Below are positions 22,101 through 64,000 of a DNA stretch of 64,000 nt, one piece after another. The position numbers and the translations under genes are program-made. The DNA comes from Pratylenchus scribneri (lineage: Eukaryota; Nematoda; Chromadorea; Rhabditida; Pratylenchidae), in contig JAQSEB010000146.1 of NCBI GenBank assembly GCA_030063045.1, forward strand, positions 310,001 through 374,000, in the 5' to 3' direction. The notes below the pieces were generated by a model that was not told where the DNA came from, made no database searches, and worked only from the letters and a program-made list of their open reading frames with translations. The first letter of the stretch is position 1, and every line of letters begins with the position of its first letter.

Positions 22101-25061
22101 AATGAAACAAATATTTTTTCCGACTAGCTTTGGGAATTGACTTCTTAAGAATTAATTTAAAATAAAATTCAAAAAATATTTTTAATCGAAAATGCTTAGG
22201 TGAAAAACCACGCCAATCCAACCGTTGTGCGCTGTGACATTCATAATGGACAAACCGGTGGAATCTATGTGCATGAGAAGGGCCGTGGCCAATTCATGGA
22301 AAATCGAATTTATTCCAATGAATTTGCCGGCATTTGGATTACTTCCCAATCGGAGCCAACAATTCGAAAGAATGAAATTTTCAATGGCCAACAGGGCGGG
22401 GTTTACATTTTTGGCGATGGGAGGGGCCTTGTTGAACAAAACAACATTTATGGGAATGCATTGGCTGGCATTCAGTATAATTTGTTTTTAATTTTAATTT
22501 AAACATTTTATTTTTGTTAGAATTCGCACTGGTTCGGATCCAATTGTTCGACTCAATAAAATTCACGACGGCCTTCACGGTGGCATTTATGTTCACGAAA
22601 AGGGCAAAGGATTGATTGAGGAGAATGAAATTTATGAGAACACTTTGGCCGGCATTTGGGTCACAACCGGTGAGTACATTTTTTTATATATAAAATATTC
22701 AAAATGAGAAAAATTTCATCAAACAAAAAATTAAATCTGAAAAAATATTTTTCCTACAAAAGGGATTCCCTATAGAAAAACATATTGTGCATATGTGATC
22801 GTGATAAGATAACATTTTAATTACCGTTAAAAATATTTAATATAATTTACAAATTCATATAATTTCCTCCATATTTAAAGGTTCTTCGCCAATTCTTCGA
22901 AAGAATCGCATCCATTCGGGCAAACAAGTTGGCGTTTATTTCTACGATAATGGCCATGGATTGTTGGAGGAAAATGACATCTTCAACCATTTGTACTCGG
23001 GCGTCCAAATTCGAACTGGATCCAATCCAAAAATTACTCGCAATAAAATTTGGGGCGGTCAAAATGGAGGTTAAAACCAATTTATTTACAATTTAATTTA
23101 TATTTCTGCTTTAAAAGGTGTTCTTGTTTATAATAATGGAAATGGAGTGTTGGAGGACAATGAAATTTTTGACAATGCAATGGCCGGCGTATGGATCAAA
23201 ACGGACAGCAATCCAACGCTGCGACGAAATAAGGTTTGGGTATTTTAATTGTTGAGATTTAACATTTAATTGATATTTTGGGTCCTTATTTTTTAAGGAA
23301 GGATTTAAATTTTTATTAAGGCCTTTTTATTAAATTGAATAAAAATTCAATAAAATTGAATTAAAAATTGATAATTCATAATAAAAAAAATTTTAAACAG
23401 AATCAAAAATATTTTAAAAACGCTAAAATCAGGCGATAACACTAGCACCTTTTCTACCTCATTTTTGGTTCAATATTTCATCTAGAAATATGCTGTAAAA
23501 AAATAAAATGTGCACCAAGCTCGGAAAAAATTTCTCTAGGCGGATTCAAATTTTTAAACTAAATATTGTAAAAGTGAAGGATCCTCCTTTCCTTTGGGTC
23601 GAAAATTTTCGAAAAAATCTTTAAAACTCTAATCAAACTAAACCTAGCCATATCCTAAAGCTTTAAGCCCAACTGAAATGCCAAAAATATCCATTCAAAT
23701 CAAACTAATAAATAAACTATATTTCATCAGATCTACGATGGCCGTGACGGCGGTGTTTGCATTTTCAATCGGGGCCGAGGCCTGCTCGAAGACAATGACA
23801 TCTATCGAAATGCCCAATCTGGTGTACTAATCTCCACCGAATCGAACCCAGTCCTCCGCCGCAATCGAATTTTCGAAGGCCGTGCGGCCGGCATTGAAAT
23901 CACGAATGGGGCCAGTGCCACCCTGGAACACAATTTACTCTACAACAATCGATTCGGTGGCCTTTGCATGGCCACCGATGTACGGCCAACCTGCCGGGAC
24001 AATCGCCTCTACGACAATTACAACGCAGTGGAGAGGGCCATTGCCAAGGGATATTGCCTGTTCAAAATCAGTTCGTGCACTTCATTTCCAATGCATGATT
24101 TTTATCGGTTTGTGTTTTTTTCATTTAATTTACATTAAAAAATTATAAAAAAAAGAGTACTTAACGCCAAAATAATTGGTTTAAGGAAGAGGGTTTTGTG
24201 CTATATTCGTAAACCATATACTCAATTGGATAAAATTAGTTCAAAACACATCGAATTGAATATAATTTTTCGTCGTTTGTTCTCAAAATTAAACATGAAA
24301 TTAGACGGTTTTAAACTAATTTTGGTTTAATCGAAACTTTATTAATCTTATGCCAAATATTATCAATGCTTGAACATAGTATATGGTTTGAGGATCTTAG
24401 ATATATCGCTGAACCGTTAAAAATTTTTTTGAAATTTTCCTAAATAATAATGTCCAACGAATTATTATCAAATTGAACATTTTTATTTCTTTTTTTTTTC
24501 ACTTTTATGATATTAATTTAATTAGGTTGAGTGATCAAAAAATTAATTTAAATCAATTTAAATATATTAAATTCAAAATTCCTCCACCATTTGTAGCTGC
24601 ATCACCTGCAACACGACCGAGCGGAATGCCATTTGCGTTAGTTGCATCAATGTTTGCCACAGAGGCCATCAAGTGGAATTTGTTCGACATGATCGGTTTG
24701 TCCAAAAATGAGGAGGGAAAAATTATTTTAATTTAAAGTTTCTTCTGCGATTGTGGCGCCGGCACTTTGGAACAACAAGTTTGCTGCCTACAAAATGAGA
24801 TTCGAGACAATGGTTTGTTTTTAAACTATCAAAAAATATAAACATAAATTTGAAAATTATTGCGATTGACCAAAAACAAATTCAAAAGATAATCTATTTA
24901 AAGAAAATAAAAAGTGATCAATAAAATTATAAATATATTTTTCAGACACCGTCTACGACTCGGCCCAACCAACGGAAAGTGAAACTGGCAACAACAATGG
25001 AGCGGCCGGGGGACCTGCTGCCGGACCAGTTGCTGCACCATTACCACCACCAAATCCTTAG
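19115..25061 (+). CDS. dre-1: DRE-1/FBXO11, F-box + PbH1 repeats + UBR zinc finger
   Basis: Eighteen exons (19115-19235, 19478-19569, 19619-19888, 19937-20025, 20148-20286, 20337-20669, 20865-20903, 21018-21125, 21172-21249, 21625-21792, 22200-22474, 22521-22669, 22881-23069, 23118-23233, 23731-24107, 24597-24695, 24739-24812, 24946-25061) give 943 residues, near worm DRE-1 length. It is the substrate-recognition subunit of an SCF ubiquitin ligase, known for developmental timing. The F-box lies at about 152-195 ([14 protein letters not shown]). A long right-handed beta-helix of PbH1 repeats follows (about 300-830), with repeated GGIYVHEKG- and [12 protein letters not shown] units. A Cys/His-rich UBR zinc finger (about 845-905) has [16 protein letters not shown] and FFCDCGAG. 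The tail is Pro-rich. Introns contain tRNA-like repeats. Exon 12 is the source of the inverted copies found in the RBM25 gene. Confidence 0.96.
22012..22140 (-). repeat. degenerate tRNA-like element in dre-1 intron
   Basis: Minus strand shows an A-box-like ttggcctattgggttagagc and a B-box gtgggttcgaatcc at about tRNA spacing, followed by aataattttttt. Acceptor arms do not pair well, so this is probably a SINE head or tRNA pseudogene, not a functional tRNA. Confidence 0.5.
23440..23625 (-). repeat. SINE-like element in dre-1 intron 14
   Basis: On the minus strand it has gaaaattttcgacccaaagg, ggatccttcacttt, a decayed B-box (tttgaatccgcc) and attttttccg, in the same order as the element at 1.1 kb. 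Confidence 0.5.
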
Positions 25062-45500: not shown

Positions 45501-45696
45501 GTTGTACAACATACAACTGTTATATGGTCGAAAATTCTATACAAAATAACCCAAATCAATCCTCTTATCAATCCCGTTCCCATTATCATAGCATCATATA
45601 AAAATTACAATTAGTACAATGCAATCAAATAATATTTAATGCATTCTTTCAGAGTTATTCATTCATTCAATTATATTATTCAAATCTGAACCATTG
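42550..45696. other. 3.1-kb intergenic region between zinc-finger gene B and the LOTUS-NADAR gene
   Basis: Divergent promoters. 42550-44900 resembles 37.4-39.5 kb in texture (ggcca words, unsupported open frames on both strands); 44100-44750 is the most GC-rich part. 44900-45690 is AT-rich, with a cryptically simple ccggttccgg block at 45300-45440. An acceptor-like gcattctttcag ends at 45652, 44 nt before the next ATG. No gene supported. Confidence 0.4.
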
Positions 45697-48600
45697 ATGC
45701 CACCTGACAATCATAATTTTCGAAGAATGGCCGACAATGGCCCACAACATTATGAAGGTGTGGTGCTGGATGATGACGACGACGATATTGGACTCCCAAT
45801 CATGAACAATGGAACTGAAGATGAAGATGATGAGGAGATTGGACTAGAAATGCCACCAGTTGAGGTCGCTCATCAATTATTGGCCAACCGACAGTCACAA
45901 CGAACAAGCGATGATGCCACAGAAACCGGATTCGAGGAGTTTGACAACCTCGTAGTTTCGCCGCAAAATCAGAACGATGATGATCTCACAATGCGCACCC
46001 AATATGGTGAAGTGAATTTCCAAACATTCATCGAGGAATTGATCTTCACATTGGCCTCAAAATACACTGGATACACAGATTTGAATGAATTGCGCCATGA
46101 TCTCGGGTTTAATCTCTTAATTTCTAAAATTTAATTTCAACAATGCTTTTTAGCAGAGATGCGGGCTTCTCACCTGATTTGCTTGTTCAACACTTCGGCT
46201 TCCCCAATTTCACCGCCCTGATGAATTCTGATCGGGTGCTCAAATATATTCAAGTCATACCAATTGATGGAAAATTGTGCTATTTGCCCCGTGATTTTTC
46301 CCGTTTTTCGCACATTCGAGATGCTCAGGAAATAACACAAAATGTCACAATGCTTCAGTACGGTTTTTTTGATTTTAATTAAATATTTAAAAAATATTTT
46401 CATTAATAGTAACTAAAAATGGAAATAATTTAATTTATTCCAATTTTAGCATGGATCAAGAAGAGCGCGACAAATTCTTTCGGTCTCTACTTCCCGCGAA
46501 TCGAGACGCAGCGATCAGAGGACGACAACGCATTTCGGAGATTCTCTATGAGTTGGGCGGCGAAACTAGACCAATCAATTGGCAGGAAATCCAAAAGAAA
46601 TATAAACAAAAATATGACGTCGAATTGGCAGGACAGGTTTTTTTTTTTGACTATTTTGAAGGAGGAATTATTAAATGTTTTTAAGGAGCTGAAGAGAATG
46701 TTTCAACGGGACAAAGCACTTTCCATCATCCACACATTGTTCGAGAAGGAAGTGAAGACGTTTGAAGGGAATTTGGCTGGTCATTTCTTCTTGCAATTCA
46801 AAATGCCTTATCATGGTTTAAATATTATTTTTACATTAAATTAATTTTAATATTTATTTTTTTAGAACTCGTTGAATATTATGAGGAACAATTACGAACA
46901 CACAGCGAAGCAGAGGCCTACCTTAGACAAGGACGCCACAATGCAAATTTGCCAGCAGTCAAACATAAAATTGTAAAATATTTATTTAAAAAATAATTTA
47001 AATTTGAATTATTTTTTATTTTAGGGTGCTTATCCAATTGGTCCAATGCAACTTCAAGGGAATCCGGCGGTCGATCGTTTTTTGGAACAGGGACCGTCGA
47101 CTTCGGCAGCAGCCGGAATTCCTCCTCCCAATCCAAAACCCACTTCGAATGGCCCAATTCAATCTGCGACGAATCCGCCGAATACAATTCTTCAAAATCA
47201 ATCCAATGGGCCGCAGCCGCCATCTTTTAGTAATTCTCAGACTAAAAGGTTAATAAATATATTCAAAATTAATTTAAAAAAATTATAAATTTTAAGCAAA
47301 TTCGCCACATTCGATTTGGATGCAATTCCAACCAAAGCCAATCCAAGTTTGAGTGAACGTCTGGCAATGATGAATGAACATCCAATCCATGATGCAACGG
47401 TCACCAATTCGCCGTCGAATAGGTTTCGATTTAATGAAGACGATATGGAGGCATATTCTGGACCGGGAAATGTTCCAAGGAATGAAGCAAATGATGGAAA
47501 TGGAATGTCGGAAAATGGGAACACCGCCAACCATCAAGTAAGTGAAAATATACACTTTAAAATATTAAATAAATTAGGCTAACTCAAAAAGACCTGCACA
47601 AATTAATTGCTAAGAAAGCATAAATAAGCTGAGAAATATACTCCAAGAGCTAAAGCCAAAACCTAGCCTATATAGGTCTTTGTCTTTAGCAGTGAAACTT
47701 GGGGCCCGGACTCCCCCGAAATCGGGAAAAATCCGGAAAATAGAGGTATTTTGTATTTTGGTAAAAAAAAGAGGAGAAAAATAGGAAAAAATGTCGAGGG
47801 ACCCGATCAAAAACCTATGTACCCCCCCCCCCCCCCCAAAAAAAAATAATACTGGCACCTGGTCTGGTCTTTAGGTTGCATGTTTTTCGGATGTAGCAAT
47901 TCTGGGGTGAATGAACAAACCCGAATAAATAGTCCTATATATAAACTCTTTCTTCGAGTGGAAAATGATTAATATTTAAATTTCCATTAAAAATTTAGCA
48001 GCCGGCATCAAACAAACAATTGAAATATACAAATTGCGTTGCTCCCAATGATATGACCGATTCGGAGGCGGAGGAAATGGATGATGAGGATGATGCCGCC
48101 AGTGTTGCCATTGCGCCTGGAGGCACTCGTCCAGTGGCCCGGGCAAGCCACGAATCGACGTTGCCCGCCTTCAATTTGCCATCCAACAATCCAATTCAAA
48201 GTCAAAATGCTGAATTTGGTGGCATGGGCCAGAATAATGCCAACAACAATGAGAATGGCACTGCCGGAATGGGAATTATGCCACCAACTTCGCGTCATTA
48301 TCATCAGAGAAACATCTTGAATTACATGACGGAAAAGGTTACTTTTTATTTTCTAAAATCATCACAAAAATCGAAAATAAAAATGATGGAAAATTAAAGC
48401 CAAAACTTGGCCCTAAATTTTTCTCCATTGAGATTTGAGTTTATCAAAATATTGTTTACTATTATTAAAATAATTTTTTAATATTTTAGGTTAATAAGAA
48501 AAGGGCAACCACACCAACTGCTGCTGCCGGTTGCCATACCCAAACAATGATGACACCCGCTCTTCCTGAACGAACCCCGACGCCCCCTCCTCCATTGCGT

Positions 48601-51600
48601 CAAACACAACCTTCACAACAACAACAAAAGAATGTTGCATTCAATTCGGAAGATGAGGAAGAGGAGGATGGCCTGCCAGTTCGCCACCAGCCTTTTGGAA
48701 ATCAGCCGAACAATTCAAATTCAGTGAATGCGGCATTTTCTTCATCCGGTTGGTCAATATGATGATGTCAAAATTTAATACCAAAATTAATTCATTTTTA
48801 GTACCACAATTCCGTCCTCCAAACCAAAATCAGCAATTCATCACTTCCAATCCGAACGCATCCACATCATCCCATCAAATTCATCAAATTGGCAATACAC
48901 CGAGGGCTATTCCTGCCAATGTCAACAACAATGGAATTGGTGGTGGTGATTTCCAGATGTCCAATTCTTCACTGTTTCGTCCACCCTTCTCCACCGCAAG
49001 GCCAGATTCCGCAATGCAGGGTGAATCGGCGGCAAATTGGGAACTCATGAACCATGTGGGAGCAATGTCTGCTTTGGCCAATCGAATGCGTTTGAACTTT
49101 GAAATTCGAGGAGATGAGTAAGTTATTGAAGGGTTGATGGGTGTGGGATAAGGAGGTTAAGATAGGAATTTTAAGTCTGCATTTTGCAAAAGGGGAGGGG
49201 GAACATTATTGAACATTTTGGAAAAATTGTTCATAAAACCTTGCCCTAGTCTAAGTTTGATTTTAAGAACTAGACCGAAAAACTAATAAGAGTGTCTCTC
49301 TTCATCATTTTTCCAAATTGTGAAAGTAAATTACACAAGTTTTCCTTAAATATTTACCCAAAACATTTTATAAAAAACTGAAATTTAAGGGGATCCGTCA
49401 TATTCCGCAATGGCTCTGCCATGGTTTTGGTGCTCACTGAATTCGGTGACCAAATTCGTGTGTCCTGGCATTCAAGTGGCTATATCCAAAGGGAGCGCTA
49501 TTATGCAAAGGTAAAAGTATTCCAAAATTGATTCAAATTTGGCCATTTTTCACAGGTCGATTGGGAAATGTTCTCCCAATTTATGTACGGCATCGTTTGT
49601 CAAACATTTGTCGATGGTGAGTGAATTGAATTGGAATTGAAGTGTGGAAAAATCTCATCGGAATTGATTGTTACCTACCTATATAATTTTTTGATCATAA
49701 GCCCCGATTCGCTCATTCGCTTTTAATGTTTTTTTTTGTCTTTCCCATCCCCCACATTTTTTGCCTTTCTTTTTGACTTGTATTCTTCGATTTGCCTTAA
49801 ATTTTACGGATACTTTTTCTCTCTATAAACCTGAAAAATAAATATGGACTAAAATTATTTAAATTTGTTTGGATTAATGTTTCATTTAAATCATTTATAT
49901 TTTTTGAAATTTATTATTTATATAAATTTTGATTCAGAAAAACGCCGAGCATTGCCGCGCAAAATGTTTGAAGATGAGGCCGAGGACAGTTGCGGGTGGC
50001 AATGCGAGCCAAATACAAAGCGATGTACTCGGTTAGTTAATTATTTGAGGAAAAATAGGAAAAAGCATTGAAAAATTGCTATTAAAATTAACTCAACTGT
50101 ATTTTTTGAGTCGAATGACATTATTCTATCCAAAAAATTAAAATAGAATATAGAAATGTGTAAAAGTGGTACAAAATTCAAAAACACGCGAAATTGGAGT
50201 TAATCACGGCTATGATTGTTATGCTTTTTTTAATATATTTAAGTTCAATAAAAATGTTTAAAAAAATCATTTTTAGTTGGGGCGAATGCAGCGGACTTTT
50301 CAATCAAAATCAACAACCACAACCGACAGCCTCAATGGATGAAAGCAGTTATCAATGGGATGAGAGCGATGGATGGGGTCAACCACCCAATTCTGCGGAT
50401 GCCGACATCAATTCATTTCCTTATGGGCAGCCACCTTCGGCAACAACCAGCAACAACATCAATGTTGACACCATTCCGGGCCATATGACAATGACAATGG
50501 ACAACATTGGACCACAAATACCACCACAAATGCAGCAGCAAAAATGGGGATGTCCACCAACGCAGGAAGCAGTGGCCAATTATGACGAGGATGCACCGGT
50601 GATGCAAAGAAATGTGCGCCATTACCTTCTGGAAAAAGTGCCATCCCAATTTGGTTAGTTTTTAAAAGGGGACACGTGGAAAATATTTATTAAAAATTCC
50701 AAACAAACACCTTATACTCCACAGAATTTGAAGGGTTTAATATAAATTAGTTTGAGTGGGAATATTCCCTCTTATCCAATATAAAAAGTTAGAGACTTAA
50801 ATAGTAAGCCACTATAGCTCAGTGGTAGAGCGTTGGTTTTTTATTCCATTGGAATATCAACCAAAGGTCAATGGTTCAATCCCGCATGAGAGCAGTAATT
50901 TATTTTAGGATTAAGATTATTTAACTTTTTTGAAAGCATAATTTTTTCAAAAGTAAATATTCAAAAAATATTTTCAGAATTCCTTGAGCCCCCATATCCG
51001 GCCTATATTAAGACTGCTGATGGCCGTGACTTCCTCGCATTCTTCACCAAAATTTACGGATTCAGCAATCATTACTCGACGGAATTCACAATTGATGGTA
51101 AGTAAGGGAAAAAAATAATTTTATTTGATTTTCGGGTCTAATTCTAGAAAAAATAACAAAAATTAATTAAAATATTTTGGATCAAATTCTTAATATTTAT
51201 TAATTTTAAAATAAAAAAGACCAAAAATATATTTAAAAAAAAATATTTAAGGGGTGACATATTGCTGCTCGGAGCAGTATTACATGTACATGAAGGCCAC
51301 CCATTTTGGATTTCATGCCGCCGCCGAGGAGATTATGGCCACAACAAGTTCTGGAAAAATCAAGGAATTGGGCACGGCGGACACACTTCGAATGCGACAA
51401 GCTTGCGGATTGGAACCGGGGGCCGGCGTGTTTGATCATGACGAGTGGAGACGCGTCAAACCGAAAGTTCGAATTTAATTTATAATCGTCAAAATGACCA
51501 AAGTATTAGCAAATTTTATCTAAAAAAAATTCGAAAAATTTTAAATTTTTGATGAAAAAACAATAAAATATTTTATTGAAAATCCCAAATTTTCTCAAAA

Positions 51601-52046
51601 AAATATACACAGATGCAAAATAAAATCACAAAATATTATTTCAAAGGTTATGATGACCGCATTGAAGGCAAAATTCCAGCAAAATACCCTCTTGTTCAAC
51701 ATGCTCATTCAAACCGGAAATGCTTATTTGGTGGAAGCCAGCCCAAGCGATGTTTTCTGGGGTTTATTTTTATCAATCAAATTTTTTAACCAATATTAAT
51801 TTTTAGGGATTGGATGCGCCATAAATTCTGATCGAATTCGTGAACCATCGCAATGGCGGGGCGAAAATTTGTTGGGTAAAAATTTTAATTCAAAATTCTC
51901 CAAAAACCTTAATTTTTTTAGGCGTTTTATTGATGCGATTGAGGACGGAATTACAATCAAAATTCAGCGATTTTGATCGAAAGAGGAAGAGACCACGATC
52001 GGCAATGACCCATCAACAACGACCAATGATGAATCGCCACAATTGA
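45697..52046 (+). CDS. LOTUS/OST-HTH-like + NADAR domain fusion protein
   Basis: Nineteen exons (45697-46106, 46154-46357, 46450-46636, 46686-46815, 46866-46972, 47025-47248, 47297-47537, 47999-48337, 48490-48748, 48802-49117, 49390-49510, 49556-49616, 49938-50031, 50277-50653, 50978-51097, 51252-51466, 51647-51761, 51807-51875, 51922-52046) join without a frame break into 1,237 residues. Residues ~98-183 (VNFQTFIEELIFTLASKY, then QHFGFPNFTALMNSD) and ~225-310 (ISEILYELGGETRPINWQEI) look like winged-helix LOTUS domains, which bind RNA or Vasa. A long Asn/Gln/Pro-rich middle follows, with a small globular part at ~800-866. The C-terminus (~1030-1225) is a NADAR domain: GFSNHYSTEFTIDGVTYCC, SEQYYMYMKA, ALKAKFQQN, LVEASPSDVFWGIG and ENLLGVLLMRLR. 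NADAR proteins act on ADP-ribose-type N-glycosidic bonds. The NADAR call is strong; LOTUS is by eye; the pairing's function is inference. Confidence 0.85.
47822..47837 (-). repeat. poly-C/G tract (16) in LOTUS-NADAR intron 7
   Basis: Uninterrupted run of C on the plus strand followed by an A run, in a 461-nt intron. Third monoG-type tract of 14 or more in the window. Confidence 0.9.
50803..50895 (+). repeat. degenerate tRNA-like element in LOTUS-NADAR intron 14
   Basis: Good A-box (tatagctcagtggtagagcg), a paired ttggtt / aaccaa anticodon-type stem with an enlarged 20-nt loop, and a B-box-like atggttcaatccc. The acceptor (gccacta vs tgagagc) and T-stem pair poorly, so I do not call a functional tRNA. 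Confidence 0.5.
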
Positions 52047-52274: not shown

Positions 52275-55200
52275 ATGAAAAAATCACCAGGCCCAAAATC
52301 GAATCGAAAAATGAAACGCCAAAGGGAAAAGGCACAAAAGAGAATCAGCAAAATGGCCCAAAAAGGGAAGCTACGAAAACACATGAAGGACCGGGTCAAA
52401 GCAGTGCAGGAGAAGAGGAAAGCGGCCAGCCAGAAACGGCGTGCACAGGTTTACAATAAAAATTTTAAAAAAAAACAATAAAAATACTTCGGATTAACCA
52501 TAAAGATAAAATTATTGACAAAAAAGATGATCACTGGAAAAAGTCACTTACGGCATTCAAATCGGATTTCAAATTTAGCATATACACTTAGGTTTCACAA
52601 CATGCTTTAATAAATTCTAAACTAACAAATTCAAGGATTAATTGAAATGCTTAAAAATCTATTACTTAAAAGCTAAAATTTTCTCATCTTTGGGCAACAA
52701 ATATTTTGCTTTTTCTTAATACTTAAATAATTAAAAATTAATATTTGAAAAGGGAATATAAAAAATTTTTAAAAGTTAAATATTATCGATTTCGAAATGG
52801 AACAAATTCTGCTTAGTAACTTCACAGGCAATCCAAAAATGTTATTAAATTACTAAATCCATATATTATTATTCTTTCATTGTCAGATCCATCAAGATTG
52901 GCTAATCGATCGACGCCATCGAAAGGCAGAACGAGAACGCCTTTCAGAGAATGAAAGCAGCAATGATGATGAAGAGGAAGACCGAATCCTTCCAATGGAC
53001 ATGTTGGATCCGGACTTCCCGTTGGATGCAAATTTTTACAAAATAATGTTGGCCAAAGAGAGGGCAAAGGGAAGAGGAGAAAATGAGGAAGAAATGGACA
53101 CGGAGGAATGGGAAAATCAAGTGAGAACATTTGTGGACGAAAAGGAATTATTGCCGGTGAAAATTGATGGAAAATTGGTGCGGAGATTTAGAAGAGAAAA
53201 GATGGGAGGAAGTCAACGGGAAGAGGAAGAGGAAATGACGGATGAGGAGGATGATGGAATAAAAAAGGAGGAAATTGAATCGGATGAAGATGAAGAAGCG
53301 ATTTACCTAACAGAAAAAGGTTAGGGGAAAAATTTATTTTGGGACCAATTTAATCAAATTTTATTTTACAAAAATTTAAAATTTAATTTTAAAATTATTT
53401 TGCAATTGGAATTGATTTAAATTTCGGGAATAGAGAAAATTTACTAAAAAAATTAAGTTAATTTAGAGAAAAGAATTTTTCTGGCCCAATTTATTCTTTT
53501 TTAAAACTAAAAAACATTTTATTAATCTTTTTGTAAATTATTTAGGTAATTAAATATTGAATATATTTTTAAAAAAATAAAAATAGGTTTAATTAATAAT
53601 AAAAATTCAAATAATTTTTTCCACTAATTTTCTAATCCAACCAAAATCATTTTTAGATGAACAAAATGCGGAGGAATTGGCCACAATGGACGATAAACAA
53701 TTGGCTGAATATTATAAAAAATTGTTGGCTCAATCCGAATCTGTGGTTGCCTCCGCCGTCGACCAAATCATTGTTGATCCACAGGAAAATGTTTGTTTAA
53801 TTTTTGAACATTTTTTAGTAACCAAATATTTTCTAAGGTCTCAAAATTTCGCACTTTGCTGAAAATGGCAGCCGGCGAAGGGGGCATTCCCGAATTGATC
53901 CGTGAACCCATTCAAAAATTGACGACCGCCTCTTTGGCTGAATTGTTCCGAAATGTGCTGCCCGGCTACCCAATTCATGTCCTCTCGGAGACGGAAAAAT
54001 CACAGAAAATGCGCAAAGAGACAAAAAGGTTGGAATTTTACTTATATATTTTTACAAATATTAGCTAAAGACAATTTTATGAAAATAATCGACCTTTTAG
54101 GGTGGGAGGAAGAGCTTTTCTTCCATTTCTATTTTATTTAGTATTTTTGGATTTTTTAAATTTAGTTCATGCCATATTCTGGCTATAATTTAAAATAAAT
54201 AAGAAAATCCAATAATTTATTTCACATTTTTGGTTCGAAAATGATAAAAAATATTTTTTGCGCCAACTAGTTTTTCCTTAACATTTTTCTACAAATTAAA
54301 CATCAATTTTACTTAAAATTTTGCTTTTTATTAAAAATGTAAATTAATTTAAATTTCCTTTTTTTTTCACAGATTGGCCGCCTATGAACAATCCCTGCTA
54401 AATTATTACGTCAAATATTTGAAATTTTTGGAGAAAAATGCTCTAAGTAAGTAATTATTTTTATTAATTCTCAATGATTTCTCAAATTTTTAGGGTTAAA
54501 TTCCATCAAAAATGTTGGCCAACAAAATGAAGAATCCAATTTTTCCACTCAATTTGGCTTCCTCTGTGCCCAATGTCTTTGCAAATTGGCCACCGAATGT
54601 GCACATTTCAATTATGGGCTGAATATTATTACATGTTTGGTTCGACTCAGCTTAAGCAAATGGCAAAAGGTTTTTGATTTTTTTCAGTTTTATTTAAAAA
54701 ATATTTTGGTACTTCCATAAATTATTTAGTGAAATTTTCATTATTCTTTTCTGATTATCTTGAGACCTTGGACCCTGTTGGGTGTTGGGGAGGGAGAAAA
54801 CTGGGCTAGAGCCACCATCTATTTAATTTCAATTAGAGTCTGGCGCCAGGCCGGGCCCGAAAAACCTGGCATTTTTTATGAGCCTGGAACCCGGCACATT
54901 TTAAAAAACAACCGGGCCCAGAAGTCGGCCCGATAATTTTTTCGTATTTTCCGAAAACCGGCCTTTTTTTTGCCGGGCCCGGGTAATTTTTTCTGAAAAA
55001 AAAACCCGGAACCGGGCCCGGAAATTCTGAAAAACCGGACTCTAATTTCAATATGCACTCTTTTTGGGTTGTTCAAAAAATATGGGCACAAATTAAGCAA
55101 TTAATACCAATAACAAAATACGATTTTGGGTAATATTTCTCTTAAACAAAAATCCAACAAAATTTGATATAAGTAATAATAATAATAATAATTTTTGCAA

Positions 55201-56550
55201 AAAAATAATGGAAAAAATTTGTATTGGTTTCCCAAAAATAATCCCAAATTCCTAAGAAATTCTCAACTATTTAATTAAAATGTTTTGGGCCTAGCCTAAT
55301 TATTTTTATATTTATTTAAATTTCTTTATTTTTTGCAGCTCATCGATTTGGTTTGCTCCTCAATTTCTGCAGTTTTTGCCGCCGATTTGGAATTGAAAAT
55401 TTCCCTGCATGGTGTCAAGGCAATTTCCACATTGGTCAACAAAAAGAAGGGAAATGTTCCACCGGCGCTGATTTCCACACTTCTCTCATTGAATATTAAG
55501 GTTTTTGGAATTAATTTTAAAATATTTATTTTATTGAATTTTATAGGAAATTGATCAAAAAAATTGCGCGGAAAAGAATAAAAAGAATCAACGGAATAAT
55601 TCAAAAAAGATGGCAGCGCCGAATGTGCCCAAAAAGAGGAGAAAGGTTTGGTCCAATTTTTGAATTAATTTAAATTTGAATTTAATTTGGATTTTTTTAA
55701 TTCAGTAAAAAAACTAAAATAAGCAAAAAATAATTTTAGAACTCTATAAATAGATCAAAAAGACCATAAATTTGAAATAGTAACAAATCTGTGGCTTTTG
55801 GACTTGCAATTTTTGGATTTAAAAGGAATCTTCTTTTTTTTAAATATTTTCCCTAGAAAGACAACGGATGAATTTATAAAAAAATATTTCCAAAAATTTC
55901 CATCATTTAAATTAACAAAAATTCACATTTCAGTTCGACAAACAACTCAAAAAAGTTGAAGTGGAATTGGAGGAGGCCCTGGCCACCAACGCCCATGCAA
56001 CCAAATTACGGTTGGGCGCCGAAGTGATGCGCTTTGTTTTCCTCACATTTTTCCGTGTCCTCCGCCGAATGCCCCAATCCGCTCTGTTACGACCCGTTTT
56101 GGAAGGCCTCACCAAATTCATTCATTTGATCAATGTGGAATTTTACGATGATTTAATTGACCATTTGGGTCGATTGGCCGGACAAACGGTTTGATAAAAA
56201 TATTTTAGTTAACTTTAAACTATTCAATTTAGTATGTGGAAATCACCGATGATGAATATGCCAAACAAGGACATTTGCTTCAATTACTCGACCTCATTAA
56301 AAAGGTTACTAATTTTATTTGTTTTGGGCGCTTCACTCTTCTCATTTGCCCTAAACAAATTGGCAAATGAGTTTTGAAAAGCGCAAAAATTAAAATTAGA
56401 GCCAATTTGCAACCATGATTTTGTCTTTTCCAAAATGGATATTTCATGTACTAAATTTTGGCTACATAAAAATTTTTAAAAATACAAAATTTTCACTTTT
56501 TTTTACAAAATAATTTTCAGCGTGAATGGAGGACGCGCATCATTCGATGA
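52275..56550 (+). CDS. NOC3L: NOC3 nucleolar complex protein, C-terminally shortened
   Basis: Eleven exons (52275-52448, 52887-53319, 53657-53790, 53838-54028, 54373-54446, 54494-54669, 55339-55500, 55547-55645, 55934-56188, 56233-56304, 56521-56550) give 599 residues. NOC3 helps pre-60S ribosome maturation and export from the nucleolus. Seen: a very basic N-terminus (KSNRKMKRQREKAQKR), IHQDWLIDRRHRKAERER, an acidic region, the NOC3 N-terminal domain (GEGGIPELIREPIQKL, SETEKSQKMRKETKRLAAYE), and helical repeats ending at LEGLTKFIHLINVEFYDDLI. Human NOC3L (800 aa) continues with a CBF/Mak21-type domain; here two small exons add an unrelated-looking tail and a stop. Mobile elements fill the next 7 kb, so the gene may be truncated, or its true last exons may lie past the window. 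An acceptor-like site ends at 52268. The gene is 229 nt from the upstream gene on the same strand. Confidence 0.9.
54830..55046. repeat. CCGGGCCCGG-rich element with short inverted ends in NOC3 intron
   Basis: Ends are attagagtctgg and ccggactctaat. Inside are repeated ccgggcccgg, ggaacccgg and aattttttc words in both orientations, so it could fold on itself. It stands out in GC from the surrounding AT-rich intron (54670-55338). Confidence 0.7.
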
Positions 56551-58592: not shown

Positions 58593-59207
58593 AATACAGG
58601 TCAAAAAGCGATCAAACTGAACCAGCAAAGAGGACAGAGCCGATCGCCAATTCGAAACCAAAACCGGAGAGTCATCGAGCAAAACCGCAATCAACAAATT
58701 CGTCTCAGAAGCGGTCGAAGAATTGAATTTCATCAACGGTGGGCAAGGCATTTTGAACGGCAAGGACGACAACAAATTCGGAATCGCCCTAACCAAAACC
58801 GAAGAAGCAACCAAAGAAGAGGCCGAGGGGGATACGCAGTTCCCCAGCAAATTGTGATCCAAATCCCGGAGCAACCGCAACAACAAATCCAACAACAAGC
58901 ACCTCCTCCTCCTCCTCCACCACCGCCTCCGGCATATTACGCTCATCAACCGCAACAACAAATCCAACAACACTTGCTTCCTCCTCCCCCACCGCCTCCG
59001 GCTTACTACGCTCATCAGCACCCAAATCCTTACGTAATTCGAGTGCCTCACCAAATCCAAGTGCCTCATCCAATTCAAGTGCCACAAATCCAATATGTCG
59101 GCAATCATTATGGCCAATATCAAGCCTACCCGGGAACGCCTCAAGCGGTACGTGGACGAGGCAGCCGCCGCGGACTTCACAATCAACCGCGATTTGATTG
59201 GCGCTGA
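58593..59207 (+). CDS. Arg- then Gln/Pro-rich open frame overlapping start of gag
   Basis: An open frame of 205 codons without an ATG. The first half is Arg/Gln/Asn-rich (RRGRGGYAV); the second has two copies of a QQQIQQ-polyPro-AYYAHQ unit. It ends 113 nt inside the gag-pol frame, in a different frame. The gag frame itself is also open at 58621-58854, before a TGA. This might be a retroelement leader protein made from a non-AUG start or a spliced RNA, or chance openness in low-complexity leader DNA. Confidence 0.35.
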   Translation, partial: NTGQKAIKLNQQRGQSRSPIRNQNRRVIEQNRNQQIRLRSGRRIEFHQRWARHFERQGRQQIRNRPNQNRRSNQRRGRGGYAVPQQIVIQIPEQPQQQIQQQAPPPPPPPPPPAYYAHQPQQQIQQHLLPPPPPPPAYYAHQHPNPYVIRVPHQIQVPHPIQVPQIQYVGNHYGQYQAYPGTPQAVRGRGSRRGLHNQPRFDWR

Positions 59208-62200
59208 AAAAATGGCACGATGTGAGTCTATTAAAAAGTCCCTTGAATCGTTCATTGAAAAAATTGAAAGGGCAATAAATTTATTGGAAAGCGCCAATTG
59301 GCGTTGGGCTGAATGGATGGGAAAATTACCAATAGCCCAAAAGGAAGATGAAAAAACAGTTTTCGATAATTTTTCGAATGGGGATGAAGGCCATCTAAAA
59401 TTAATGGAAACAGGGCGAGAAAGTTTGAACCAATTATATGAAAATTTACGCATCTTAAATGATTTGATGAAACCGCCCGATTTAGTGCCTAGACAAGAGC
59501 AAACCCCAGCTCAAGCCCAATTAAATGCCACTTTTATGGATGCATTGCCTAATATTGAACTCCCAAAATTCGGGGGAGAAGTGGCTGAATGGGAAACATT
59601 TTACGAGGATTTTATTAGCCTCATTGACGACCGCCCTCTTTCGGACAAATTAAAACATTCGTATTTAAGAAAAGCATTAGTGGGCGATGCTGATGATTTA
59701 GTTCGAGGATATGCCATTACGGCAAATAATTACCAAACCGTTTTGGATGTTTTGAAGGATCATTACGGAAATAAAAATCTAACAAAAAGTGCCTTACACG
59801 GCGAATTGAATAAAATGAAAAAAGCCACACAATACGTGCCCGAAATAAAGGCAACTTTACGTAAAATCGACTGCATTATTCGCCAATTAAAAAATTTGGG
59901 AGAAGATATTAATCACGAGCAAATAAGAATCCAAATACAGAAAAAAATGCCCAAATGGATTTTAAAAGAAATTATCAAAAAAACTAGGGCAAATCCAGAA
60001 TGGGAAGTAGAACAAATGTTAAAATTTCTTGATGAAACAATTCAGCTCGAGGAGCAAGTTTTTAAGGCCCAAAATGATTTTAATGACGAATTCGTAATTG
60101 AGAAAGATAAAAAAGGGCCTAAAAAGCATAATAATAATAAAAATTATAAATCCACGGCCATGTATGGATTGGCCCAAGATGAAAAGAAAGAAAATAAATG
60201 CGCAATGTGTCAAGGCGCTCATTTTGAATCCAAATGCCAAAAATACAGTACCCGTAAAGAACGGGTTGATAAATGCCAAGAATTGGGCCTATGTTTTAAG
60301 TGTTTAAATAGTGGCCATTTCTCAAAAAATTGTAAAAAAGAAATCAAATGTGTTTTCTGCAAAAAACCGGGCCATAATATTCTATTTTGTGCAAAAATTT
60401 ACCAAAATAAAGGCAAAGAAAAAGAAAAGGAAAAGCCAAAATACAAAAAGACGAATCAAGGGCCATCAAAAAAGATGTGCGCCGGAATTGAAGAAAATGA
60501 GTCAGATTCTGATTCTGAAAAGGAAAAACAGCAATTGAATGCTGGAATTGAGCAAAAAGACATTGAAAAGGAAGAACCCGTTTTGCTCCAAACAATTTTT
60601 GGCAAAATTTCGGACCCAAATAATTCAAACAAAAATGAAACAGTACCAATTTTTCTGGATGGTGGTTGCCATATTTCTCTATTAGAAAATAATTGGGCAG
60701 AAAAAATGGGTTTAAAACCAATCAAAATACATGAATTCAATGGCTCTGGCATATTCGGTCGAAAAATTAAACAAAAAATGCCCGTTTATGAAATAAACTT
60801 ACATTGTGAAAATGGTGAAACAATTTTAATTCGTGTCAGGGGCGCCCAGGATGTGACGCGCCGAATGCGGATCCAAGGCCAACAATGTGCCAATGCAGCC
60901 GAAAGAATGAAGTTTATTCCGGAGAATTATTTTAAAATAACAAAGCCCACATTATTAATTGGATCCGATATTTACGCCAATTTGTTAAAATTAAAGGAAA
61001 CTAAATCCGGGTTCTGCGTATTGCATACTAAATTAGGAAAAGTGTTAACCGGGCCAGGGAAAATTGAAAATGAAATGTTGTGTCATTTAAATGAAAATGA
61101 CTTCCACCAGTATTGGGAATTGGAAGGGATAGGCATCAATGACTGCCCCAGCCAAAATGATGACCTGGTGGCAATTCAGCATTTCAATCGAACAAAAAGA
61201 ATTGCACAAGATGGCCGCTATGAAATCACTTGGCCGTTGAAAAACGATAAAATTCAAATTGAAAATAATTATTTCCAGGCTTTTTCAATATTGAAATCGG
61301 TTTGGCGAAAATTGAAAGAAAAGCCGGAATTGTTGGAAAAATATGACAAAAAGTGGAAGGAACAAATCAATGACAAAATTTTAGAGATAGCCCCTGAGAG
61401 GGAAACTCCTGGCCAAACCTTTTACTTGCCCCATCATGCCGTTTATAATAGTGAAAAAGGAAAAATACGGCCCGTGTGCAATGCTAGCTTCAAAAAGAAG
61501 GGCCAAAAGTCACTCAACGATCAAATGTACAGAGGCCCAGTATTGCTTCCGGAATTGGCCGGCCGGTTATTGGTCTTTCGGATGGGAAAAATTGTCGTTG
61601 TTGCAGATATAAAAGGGGCCTACCATCAAATATCCATCGCCGAAAGCGATAGAGATTTAATGAGATGTCTTTGGTTAAGGGACCCCAATTTGCCCCCAAC
61701 ACAAGAAAATATTATAAAATTGCGTTTTTGTCGCATTGTTATGGGGGTAATCTGCTCACAATTCCTGATGAATGCATGCATTAATGATCATTTGGACAAA
61801 TGCCCTTTGGCTTTAGCAAAGGAAATTAAAGAGAAAATTTATGCTGACAACCCATCATTCGAAGCAGAATCCACTGAGGAGGGAATGGAAAAATGCCGAC
61901 AGGCAAAGGAAATTTTCAAGCAAATCAAAATGGATTTACATGAATTCCACTCCAACGATGCCAAAATAAATGAATTATTTTCTGATAATCCCGGGCAAAA
62001 TATGGCCAAAGTGCTCGGTCTTGAATGGAATTTGAAAAATGATGAGATAAACTTGAAAATGAGCCAACTCCCAATCGAACCAGTTTTAACAAAACGAAAA
62101 ATTTTGAAAAATGTGGCCAAAACTTTTGAACCCTTAGGGCTTTTAATTCCAGTTTCTCTGCCCCGGAAATTGTTGTTCCAAGATGCTTGGCGAGAAAAAT

Positions 62201-64000
62201 ACGAATGGGATGACCCAATACAAGGGGATATTGTTCGAAAATGGGAGGAATTAGCAAAACAAAATGCTGAAATTAATTTTTGTATTAAAAGGCGAATTTT
62301 TGAAAAAGTTAATGCCGATGAATTTGAATTGCATGTTTTCGTTGATGCATCGAAATTAGCATATTGTGCTGCTGCCTATTTGAAAAATGGCGATCAAATA
62401 AATATAATATTTGCCAAAAATCGATTAAGTCCCGTCAAAAACAACGTCAGCATTCCTCGATTAGAATTAATGGCAGCTTTAGCGGGGAAAAGACTGACTG
62501 AATATATTGAAAAAGAAATGAAAATTGAGTTCAAAAATATCGTAATTTGGGGTGATAGCAAATGTGTGCTTGCATGGATATTGAGCACAAAACTTGAAAA
62601 AATGCCGAAATTTGTAAAAAATCGAATTGAAGAAATTAGAAAGAAGAATAATGTAACATGGCGATATGTGCCAACCGCCCAAAATCCAGCGGATTTAGGC
62701 ACCCGTGGGTGCACCGCTTTTGAGCTCAAATCCAGTGAATTGTGGTGGAACGGGCCAAAATTTTTGAGAAATGGAGAATGGCCTGAAATGCCAGAATTTA
62801 AATTAAAAGAAGAATTTAGTGAATCCATTAGTGATGATGAGGACAATATCCAACTGAATGCCCTGTTAAAAGGCGAAATTAATGTTGAAAAGTACAATTC
62901 GTGGATTAAAGTTGTCAGCTATACCACATTTTATCTGAAATTTCTGAAAAGTATTTCGAAAAATATTAAATTGGAAAGCGACTTTATGAAGGATTTAAAA
63001 AAGGTGGATTCAATTGCCAATTTAAGGAAAATGGCACAAATTTATTTATTTATGCAAGCCCAAATCGAATATCCACCTGATGAAAAAACAATTAAAGAAA
63101 ATGTGTTGAAGAAAGGCAAATATGGCCTATGGGAATGTTGGGGCAGATTAGAAAATAATGATGAAAAGCCCCCCATTTTTATACCCAAAAAATCGAAAAT
63201 TGCGCGCATTTTATGTGAATTTTATCATGAAAGGAACGATCATTTCGGTTTGCGCATTTGTTTAACAAGTCTTCGTGAACATTTTTGGATCCCAAAAGGA
63301 CGCGCATTGATGTTAAATGTGGTTGAAAAATGCCTATATTGCGCAAGAAAAAGGTTAAAACCATACGCAATCCCTCCAATGGCGCCGCTCCCAAAAGAGC
63401 GTATCAATAAATCAAAAGTATTTGAACATTGCGGAATTGACTACTTCGGCCCCTATCTTTTGAGAAAGGATAATGGGGAAATTGGGAAAATCTATTGTGC
63501 GATTTTTGCGTGTGCTTCCACCAGAGCCATTCACTTGGAAGCAGTAATGGACCTTTCCGCCCAAAATTGTGTAATGTCATTGCGAAGATTTTTAGCGGAA
63601 TTTGGGAAGCCAAAAAGTATTTTGTCGGATAATGGAACGCAACTAAAATTGACGGCAAAAGTTGTGAAAGAAATTGAAAAATACGCCGAAAATGAATTAA
63701 TCGATTGGCGTTTCATTCCGGCATTGTCACCAAGATTTGGTGCTCATTATGAACGAATAATTGGAATAGTCAAGGCCGGAATGAAATCAGCCGCAGGGAA
63801 AAGGCTTTTAAATTTTGAAGAATTTCGAACGTTGATTTTGGAGGTTAAAAATATTGTAAATTCTCGTCCTCTCACTTATGTCCATGAAGCACCTGAAGAT
63901 GTGATTGAAATTTTAACCCCAATGAAAATTTTACAGCCAATGAGAAATGTGGAAAATTTTGATGTTGAATTTGAAAATTTTGAAATTTTTTATGAAAAAG
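59095..64000 (+). CDS. Bel/Pao retrotransposon gag-pol polyprotein (runs off window)
   Basis: One frame with no stop for more than 1,630 codons; starts possible at 59095 or 59110. Order: gag with a DUF1759-like region (about 59540-59800, LPKFGGEVAEWETFYEDF), two to three zinc knuckles (60200-60400, CFKCLNSGHFSKNC and CVFCKKPGHNILFC), retropepsin-like protease (LDGGCHISLL, about 60655), reverse transcriptase (ADIKGAYHQI at ~61610; YADN at ~61848 in the YxDD position), Pao-type region, RNase H (VFVDASKLAYCAAAY at ~62335; WGDSKCVLAW; NPADLGTRG), integrase zinc finger (HERN..H..C..C, ~63220-63350), and integrase core (GIDYFGP, SDNGTQ, then Glu in HYERIIG). The domain order and PBS make this Bel/Pao. 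The intact frame suggests a young copy. The C-terminus and 3' LTR are outside the window. Confidence 0.95.
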   Translation, partial: MSAIIMANIKPTRERLKRYVDEAAAADFTINRDLIGAEKMARCESIKKSLESFIEKIERAINLLESANWRWAEWMGKLPIAQKEDEKTVFDNFSNGDEGHLKLMETGRESLNQLYENLRILNDLMKPPDLVPRQEQTPAQAQLNATFMDALPNIELPKFGGEVAEWETFYEDFISLIDDRPLSDKLKHSYLRKALVGDADDLVRGYAITANNYQTVLDVLKDHYGNKNLTKSALHGELNKMKKATQYVPEIKATLRKIDCIIRQLKNLGEDINHEQIRIQIQKKMPKWILKEIIKKTRANPEWEVEQMLKFLDETIQLEEQVFKAQNDFNDEFVIEKDKKGPKKHNNNKNYKSTAMYGLAQDEKKENKCAMCQGAHFESKCQKYSTRKERVDKCQELGLCFKCLNSGHFSKNCKKEIKCVFCKKPGHNILFCAKIYQNKGKEKEKEKPKYKKTNQGPSKKMCAGIEENESDSDSEKEKQQLNAGIEQKDIEKEEPVLLQTIFGKISDPNNSNKNETVPIFLDGGCHISLLENNWAEKMGLKPIKIHEFNGSGIFGRKIKQKMPVYEINLHCENGETILIRVRGAQDVTRRMRIQGQQCANAAERMKFIPENYFKITKPTLLIGSDIYANLLKLKETKSGFCVLHTKLGKVLTGPGKIENEMLCHLNENDFHQYWELEGIGINDCPSQNDDLVAIQHFNRTKRIAQDGRYEITWPLKNDKIQIENNYFQAFSILKSVWRKLKEKPELLEKYDKKWKEQINDKILEIAPERETPGQTFYLPHHAVYNSEKGKIRPVCNASFKKKGQKSLNDQMYRGPVLLPELAGRLLVFRMGKIVVVADIKGAYHQISIAESDRDLMRCLWLRDPNLPPTQENIIKLRFCRIVMGVICSQFLMNACINDHLDKCPLALAKEIKEKIYADNPSFEAESTEEGMEKCRQAKEIFKQIKMDLHEFHSNDAKINELFSDNPGQNMAKVLGLEWNLKNDEINLKMSQLPIEPVLTKRKILKNVAKTFEPLGLLIPVSLPRKLLFQDAWREKYEWDDPIQGDIVRKWEELAKQNAEINFCIKRRIFEKVNADEFELHVFVDASKLAYCAAAYLKNGDQINIIFAKNRLSPVKNNVSIPRLELMAALAGKRLTEYIEKEMKIEFKNIVIWGDSKCVLAWILSTKLEKMPKFVKNRIEEIRKKNNVTWRYVPTAQNPADLGTRGCTAFELKSSELWWNGPKFLRNGEWPEMPEFKLKEEFSESISDDEDNIQLNALLKGEINVEKYNSWIKVVSYTTFYLKFLKSISKNIKLESDFMKDLKKVDSIANLRKMAQIYLFMQAQIEYPPDEKTIKENVLKKGKYGLWECWGRLENNDEKPPIFIPKKSKIARILCEFYHERNDHFGLRICLTSLREHFWIPKGRALMLNVVEKCLYCARKRLKPYAIPPMAPLPKERINKSKVFEHCGIDYFGPYLLRKDNGEIGKIYCAIFACASTRAIHLEAVMDLSAQNCVMSLRRFLAEFGKPKSILSDNGTQLKLTAKVVKEIEKYAENELIDWRFIPALSPRFGAHYERIIGIVKAGMKSAAGKRLLNFEEFRTLILEVKNIVNSRPLTYVHEAPEDVIEILTPMKILQPMRNVENFDVEFENFEIFYEK

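Follow-up and report, generated by a model that had tools for sequence, protein, structure and literature searches.

We describe a gene of the nematode Pratylenchus scribneri whose predicted protein of 1237 amino acids combines a LOTUS-fold domain and a second winged-helix domain at the N-terminus with a complete NADAR domain at the C-terminus. The gene lies in a window of 64,000 nucleotides, the whole stretch of DNA that was analysed (positions 310,001 to 374,000 of the forward strand of contig JAQSEB010000146.1, assembly GCA_030063045.1). Gene and fusion are real, far beyond chance, and the original prediction, made from the sequence alone, of a single gene with two N-terminal winged helices and a full NADAR domain is borne out by an open 19-exon frame, by Pfam and by structure prediction; both motifs that it quoted are present, the second straddling the exon 17-18 junction. 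As to function, we see an even chance that the winged-helix pair sits on RNA, or on a complex of RNA with protein, and that the NADAR domain hydrolyses an N-glycosidic ADP-ribose-type adduct there.

All 18 introns of the gene are GT-AG and the exons join in one frame with zero internal stops; at exon 8 a pair of adjacent acceptors allows a product of 1236 amino acids, if the second is used. In the genome (227 Mb, 276 contigs), C4 and C184 each hold another full copy, with DNA identities to the window copy (C146) along the gene of 85-96% and 76-89%, and both keep all 19 exons and the open frame. Across the three copies every donor is GT (54/54) and 52 of the 54 acceptors fall on AG in the raw alignment, the remaining two being those of exon 8 in C4 and C184, which have an AG within two bases. 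The sequence TTTCAGAGTTATT, at the CAG upstream of the start codon (Table 1), is common to all three copies, and this acceptor is presumably used. Whole-gene omega is 0.20, 0.26 and 0.26 for the pairs C146-C4, C146-C184 and C4-C184, respectively; for the same pairs it is 0.13, 0.17 and 0.14 in DUF7515, 0.06, 0.21 and 0.27 in DUF7516, and 0.12, 0.08 and 0.07 in NADAR, the lowest or near-lowest values in the protein.

Using protein searches, we found full-length relatives in the plant-parasitic cyst nematodes Globodera rostochiensis, G. pallida and Heterodera schachtii (36% identity over the full alignment), which carry DUF7515, DUF7516 and NADAR in the order of the window protein. Because these relatives keep the same three domains in the same order, the fusion represents one conserved gene, and colinearity points to orthology. 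Identity to the three proteins is 33-37% in DUF7515, 44-51% in DUF7516, 40-48% in a conserved middle domain and 52-55% in NADAR. A partial Meloidogyne record (P0007), matched in a search with three of the four family sequences (without P0002), has DUF7516 and NADAR and lacks DUF7515. The architecture, which the original prediction had proposed to look for in other nematodes, is thus present in Globodera and Heterodera and in part in Meloidogyne; no C. elegans or vertebrate relative came from the protein searches, which required shared five-letter words and similar length. In a tree of 18 NADAR rows the branches were long and 7 of the 15 forks open, and no conclusion was drawn from it.

Some related sequences have other arrangements. 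P0006 (G. pallida GPALN_012685, 831 amino acids) has an unrelated N-terminal part followed by DUF7516 and the linker, perhaps because a copy was rearranged or because the gene model fuses separate parts. Genome-wide, exon matches number 34 for DUF7516 and 23 for DUF7515; at two loci (L028 on C124 and L029 on C42) DUF7516 comes first, then the linker and DUF7515, with no NADAR piece within the 6 kb fetched. These matches point to a family of LOTUS-like exons that has expanded and been rearranged.

The NADAR domain (PF08719) scores 133.7 bits against a cut-off of 35.1 and covers profile positions 10-163 of 163. Its active-site set is complete, comprising E1071 and K1078 (the Glu and Lys of SEQYYM..K), W1129, E1165 (the Glu of LVEA), and D1170 and W1173 (the Asp and Trp of D..WG), and all six residues are identical in 3/3 cyst-nematode proteins. 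Among solved structures the domain matches E. coli YbiA (2b3w, E 3.8e-10) and the NADAR of Phytophthora nicotianae (8bau, E 8.8e-10), and the residues align. By our mapping, E1071 and K1078 are spaced like E88 and K95 in the C7 NADAR of E. coli (PMC11543638), and E1165 corresponds to the YbiA-type glutamate (PMC11125620). The domain therefore appears catalytically complete and of the YbiA type, and the window protein would be expected to have hydrolase activity. YbiA and the Phytophthora protein share the domain and its key residues, but are of the orphan type and mostly stand-alone, whereas here NADAR makes up the C-terminal tenth to sixth of the protein. The Phytophthora enzyme, a eukaryotic case, is reported to act on ADP-ribosyl-guanine in DNA (PMC11543638), bacterial and phage NADARs are reported to act on RNA, and in the latter report NADARs are the sole tested hydrolase family that reverses ADP-ribosylation of the guanosine base of RNA (PMC11833690).

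For the first N-terminal domain (DUF7515), the top four rows of the structure comparison are all LOTUS domains, and so are 6/6 of the rows confined to this domain among the 50 listed; the Foldseek match to TDRD7 (3rco) has a probability of 1.00 and a template-modelling (TM) score of 0.74 by target. In profile comparison (hhalign, C4 copy left aside) the domain scores 17.9 against LOTUS, a value reached by 0/200 column shuffles. As modelled, domain 1 is a LOTUS winged-helix fold. Structure prediction, which the original prediction had named as a check, hence returned two N-terminal winged helices with a LOTUS fold in the first, and the claim of two LOTUS-like domains stands for domain 1; domain 2 (DUF7516) is a winged helix that matches PadR-type regulators in structure about as well as it does Oskar LOTUS. 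The alignment for structure prediction took 5/7 sequences (without P0004 and P0005), and 7/30 aligned rows were dropped (four exon-1 tails and three badly aligned or too short). A first full-length model, built on a 5-row alignment (mean predicted local distance difference test score, pLDDT, 42.6), was poor and served for leads only: TDRD7 stood at Foldseek rank 28 and LOTUS rows appeared for domain 2, with zero matches at E 0.001. Profile searches of solved structures returned nothing but NADAR structures for a four-row alignment, and just two chance matches (E 1.2) for the two N-terminal domains.

Several observations weigh against the favoured reading. In absolute terms the profile-comparison probability of domain 1 is just 3.9%, and Foldseek gave no match at E 0.001, the best LOTUS match being at 0.092. 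Pfam, which matched NADAR as the original prediction expected, did not report OST-HTH in the window protein or in 5/5 homologues, and in the window protein it gave no further family at E up to 10, although most matches weaker than about 0.1 are already discarded by the HMMER filters. In domain 2, the profile comparison with LOTUS is equalled by 19 of 200 shuffles, PadR regulators and Cdt1 (Foldseek ranks 11, 12, 14 and 19) match as well as LOTUS does, and the hhalign link to domain 1 spans 14 columns only. The column of Oskar residue 162 holds Phe (F117) in 7/7 family rows and Ala or Ser in 5/5 LOTUS rows, the small-residue set being Oskar, TDRD5, TDRD7 and Tejas. Finally, omega in the middle domain is 0.10 for C146-C4 and reaches 0.56 (C146-C184) and 0.64 (C4-C184), a weaker constraint between the distant copies. 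Known LOTUS members are reported often to escape sequence-based detection (PMC9200344). An OST-HTH scan of the whole genome gave 0 matches, which is uninformative because 14 control genomes were silent as well.

Between the winged helices and NADAR lies a long linker, 21-30% identical to the cyst-nematode proteins with frequent gaps; in a homologue model pLDDT is below 50 across residues 303-688. The structure matches of the middle domain are common alpha/beta layouts only, from a weak model, and Pfam reported no Tudor family in the protein, this domain being only weakly modelled.

Table 1. Features of the gene and its surroundings (window positions).
Feature	Position	Strand	Details
19-exon gene	45697..52046	+	spliced frame open, 1237 codons + stop; predicted from DNA
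Probable 3' splice or trans-splice acceptor CAG	45650..45652	+	44 bases 5' of ATG
DUF7515, LOTUS-fold domain 1 (as modelled)	46015..46295	+	amino acids 107-184; exons 1-2, one intron within; Pfam E 1.3e-17
DUF7516, winged-helix domain 2, LOTUS-compatible	46514..46870	+	amino acids 227-312; exons 3-5; Pfam E 8.7e-28
Long linker, probably disordered	47025..49031	+	amino acids 347-777; acidic, Q- and N-rich stretches
Conserved middle domain	49032..49942	+	amino acids 778-868; predicted helix, five strands, helix
NADAR domain	51052..51956	+	amino acids 1049-1208; exons 15-19; Pfam E 9.2e-39
tRNA-like sequence	50808-50894	+	intron 14; Rfam RF00005, 35.5 bits
NOC3p-type nucleolar gene	52275-56250	+	Pfam E 4.8e-19; begins 228 bases past the stop codon
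BEL/Pao retroelement	59038-63999	+	frame of at least 1654 codons; DUF1759, Peptidase_A17, integrase; 7 kb downstream of the gene
Right-handed beta-helix repeats	22200-24135	+	Pfam Beta_helix E 3.6e-19 and 7.2e-18

In the reading that we favour, the LOTUS-fold domain and the second winged helix would anchor the protein to RNA or to a complex of RNA and protein, the long flexible linker would join this pair to the C-terminal NADAR, and NADAR would hydrolyse an adduct of ADP-ribose, or of a related NAD-derived group, attached by an N-glycosidic bond; the simplest candidate is ADP-ribosyl-guanine in RNA. The reported partners of LOTUS domains are G-rich RNA or else DEAD-box helicases (PMC9200344, PMC5458760, PMC8331183); RNA as the site of action, hydrolysis as the reaction and guanine as the base are what we infer. 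Nothing points to a guide RNA, and the proposal of an "RNA-guided" eraser loses that word. A more specific form, a dedicated animal eraser of RNA guanine ADP-ribosylation whose LOTUS-fold module brings the YbiA-type NADAR to RNA within the nucleus or germ granules, is tentative, and we would not expect it to hold.

A different role in RNA biology is suggested by SNA-3 of C. elegans, an essential nuclear factor for SL1 trans-splicing (937 amino acids) with three NADAR domains, one without catalytic residues and two with catalytic-type residues, whose authors allow that mutations act via folding (PMC9303266). The window protein resembles SNA-3 in being a nematode NADAR protein, and SNA-3 works in an RNA complex; by analogy the window protein might be an RNA-processing factor, for example in splicing, whose NADAR serves for binding or structure rather than hydrolysis, as perhaps in parts of SNA-3. 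The NOC3-type nucleolar gene that follows closely on the same strand is a further hint at RNA biology. Against this stand the retention of all six examined active-site residues in 3/3 orthologues, the NADAR omega of 0.07-0.12, and an architecture that differs from that of SNA-3, because a single NADAR lies at the C-terminus, behind two winged helices, instead of three NADARs with no LOTUS domain reported (PMC9303266; SNA-3 was set apart by this published domain architecture). We regard such a factor as unlikely. DNA homology continues into the NOC3p-type gene in all three copies, and the two genes are a candidate operon. The tRNA-like sequence in intron 14 is recognisable in the three copies as well, and ARAGORN called no tRNA there.

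Distinctly unlikely, in our view, is a defence or repair factor that strips ADP-ribose off the guanines of DNA or RNA, either when ADP-ribosylating toxins have attacked or in conflict between NADAR-bearing retroelements or viruses and their host. Bacterial NADARs are described as antitoxins against guanine-specific transferases (PMC11543638, PMC11125620), and NADAR-bearing BEL/Pao elements abound in the genome, which may make the substrate relevant to conflict between element and host; yet the NADAR here is under strong purifying selection rather than rapid change, and nothing connects the protein to infection or damage.

Elsewhere in the genome, 19 NADAR matches with scores of 123.8-126.6 bits fall within open frames of 1,918-3,697 amino acids (for example G000 C10:3301167-3312227; L033, L008, L034). 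One copy is a BEL/Pao element with DUF1759, DUF1758, RVT_1, Peptidase_A17, integrase domains and DUF5641; in this copy, scanned in pieces, the integrase is followed by NADAR and an MTPAP-like nucleotidyltransferase, and 3' of the nucleotidyltransferase a viral fusion glycoprotein is matched weakly, at 20.1 bits against a cut-off of 27. NADAR is already reported in Gypsy and Tx1 elements (PMC12477816). Another BEL/Pao element lies within the window (Table 1), as do the beta-helix repeats, which by resemblance may belong to a gene of the FBXO11 type.

Two N-terminal LOTUS-type winged helices followed by long disorder are also found in LOTR-1 and MIP-1/MIP-2 of C. elegans and in TDRD5/TDRD7 (PMC9200344, PMC8331183), and the second LOTUS domain of LOTR-1 resembles Cdt1, as domain 2 does in Foldseek. 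The protein could then be a germ-granule scaffold of this kind, its LOTUS domain recruiting Vasa with NADAR as cargo, which we hold to be very unlikely. LOTR-1 and TDRD5/7 have a Tudor domain and MIP has none, whereas here NADAR takes its place and the Vasa-contact residue differs. In LOTUS domains that bind Vasa, this residue (A162 of Oskar) is reported to be Ala or Ser, and the A162E change to abolish binding (PMC5458760); we located it from the construct range and by alignment, where local hhalign runs and MAFFT agree on the position (one -glob hhalign run misaligned domain 1, with a score of 7.3 over 33 columns). As it is Phe in every family row, a germ-granule role through Vasa, one context evoked by the original prediction, is weakened. 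The alpha-5 helix of domain 1, the hallmark of Vasa-binding eLOTUS, is modelled at a pLDDT of 40-65 only. On present evidence the protein does not appear to be a plain Vasa recruiter; by analogy with LOTR-1, whose reported partner is ZNFX-1 and not GLH-1 (PMC9200344), RNA or another helicase is the likelier partner.

That two adjacent genes were joined in error is scarcely credible, since, set against the G. pallida protein P0006 with DUF7516 and linker and without NADAR, the frame and intron phases are continuous in three copies, three independent cyst-nematode gene models share the domain order and conserved linker patches, and DUF7516 and NADAR are joined in the Meloidogyne record.

No description of LOTUS and NADAR in one protein, and no mention of DUF7515 or DUF7516, was found in the literature searched, from which subscription journals were mostly absent; an apparent co-occurrence of NADAR and OST-HTH in one paper proved to be the author name Nadarajah. 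The original statement that no animal protein with this pairing is described holds for that literature; the databases already contain the fusion in Globodera, Heterodera and Meloidogyne (P0001-P0003 and P0007), as unnamed or hypothetical NADAR proteins with Pfam domains ordered as here and no function or LOTUS label attached. The combination is new and its parts are known; it is real and conserved, and the functional reading is plausible.

The role of NADAR enzymes in animals is described as open (PMC11125620), and a conserved animal protein with a LOTUS fold and NADAR offers a concrete, testable place to seek ADP-ribosylation of RNA in animals. A fold and a family are gained for DUF7515 and, with less certainty, for DUF7516, and the nematode use of NADAR extends beyond the trans-splicing factor SNA-3. 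If the protein were a dedicated eraser, it would follow that nematodes attach ADP-ribose to the bases of RNA as an ordinary mark that can be reversed.
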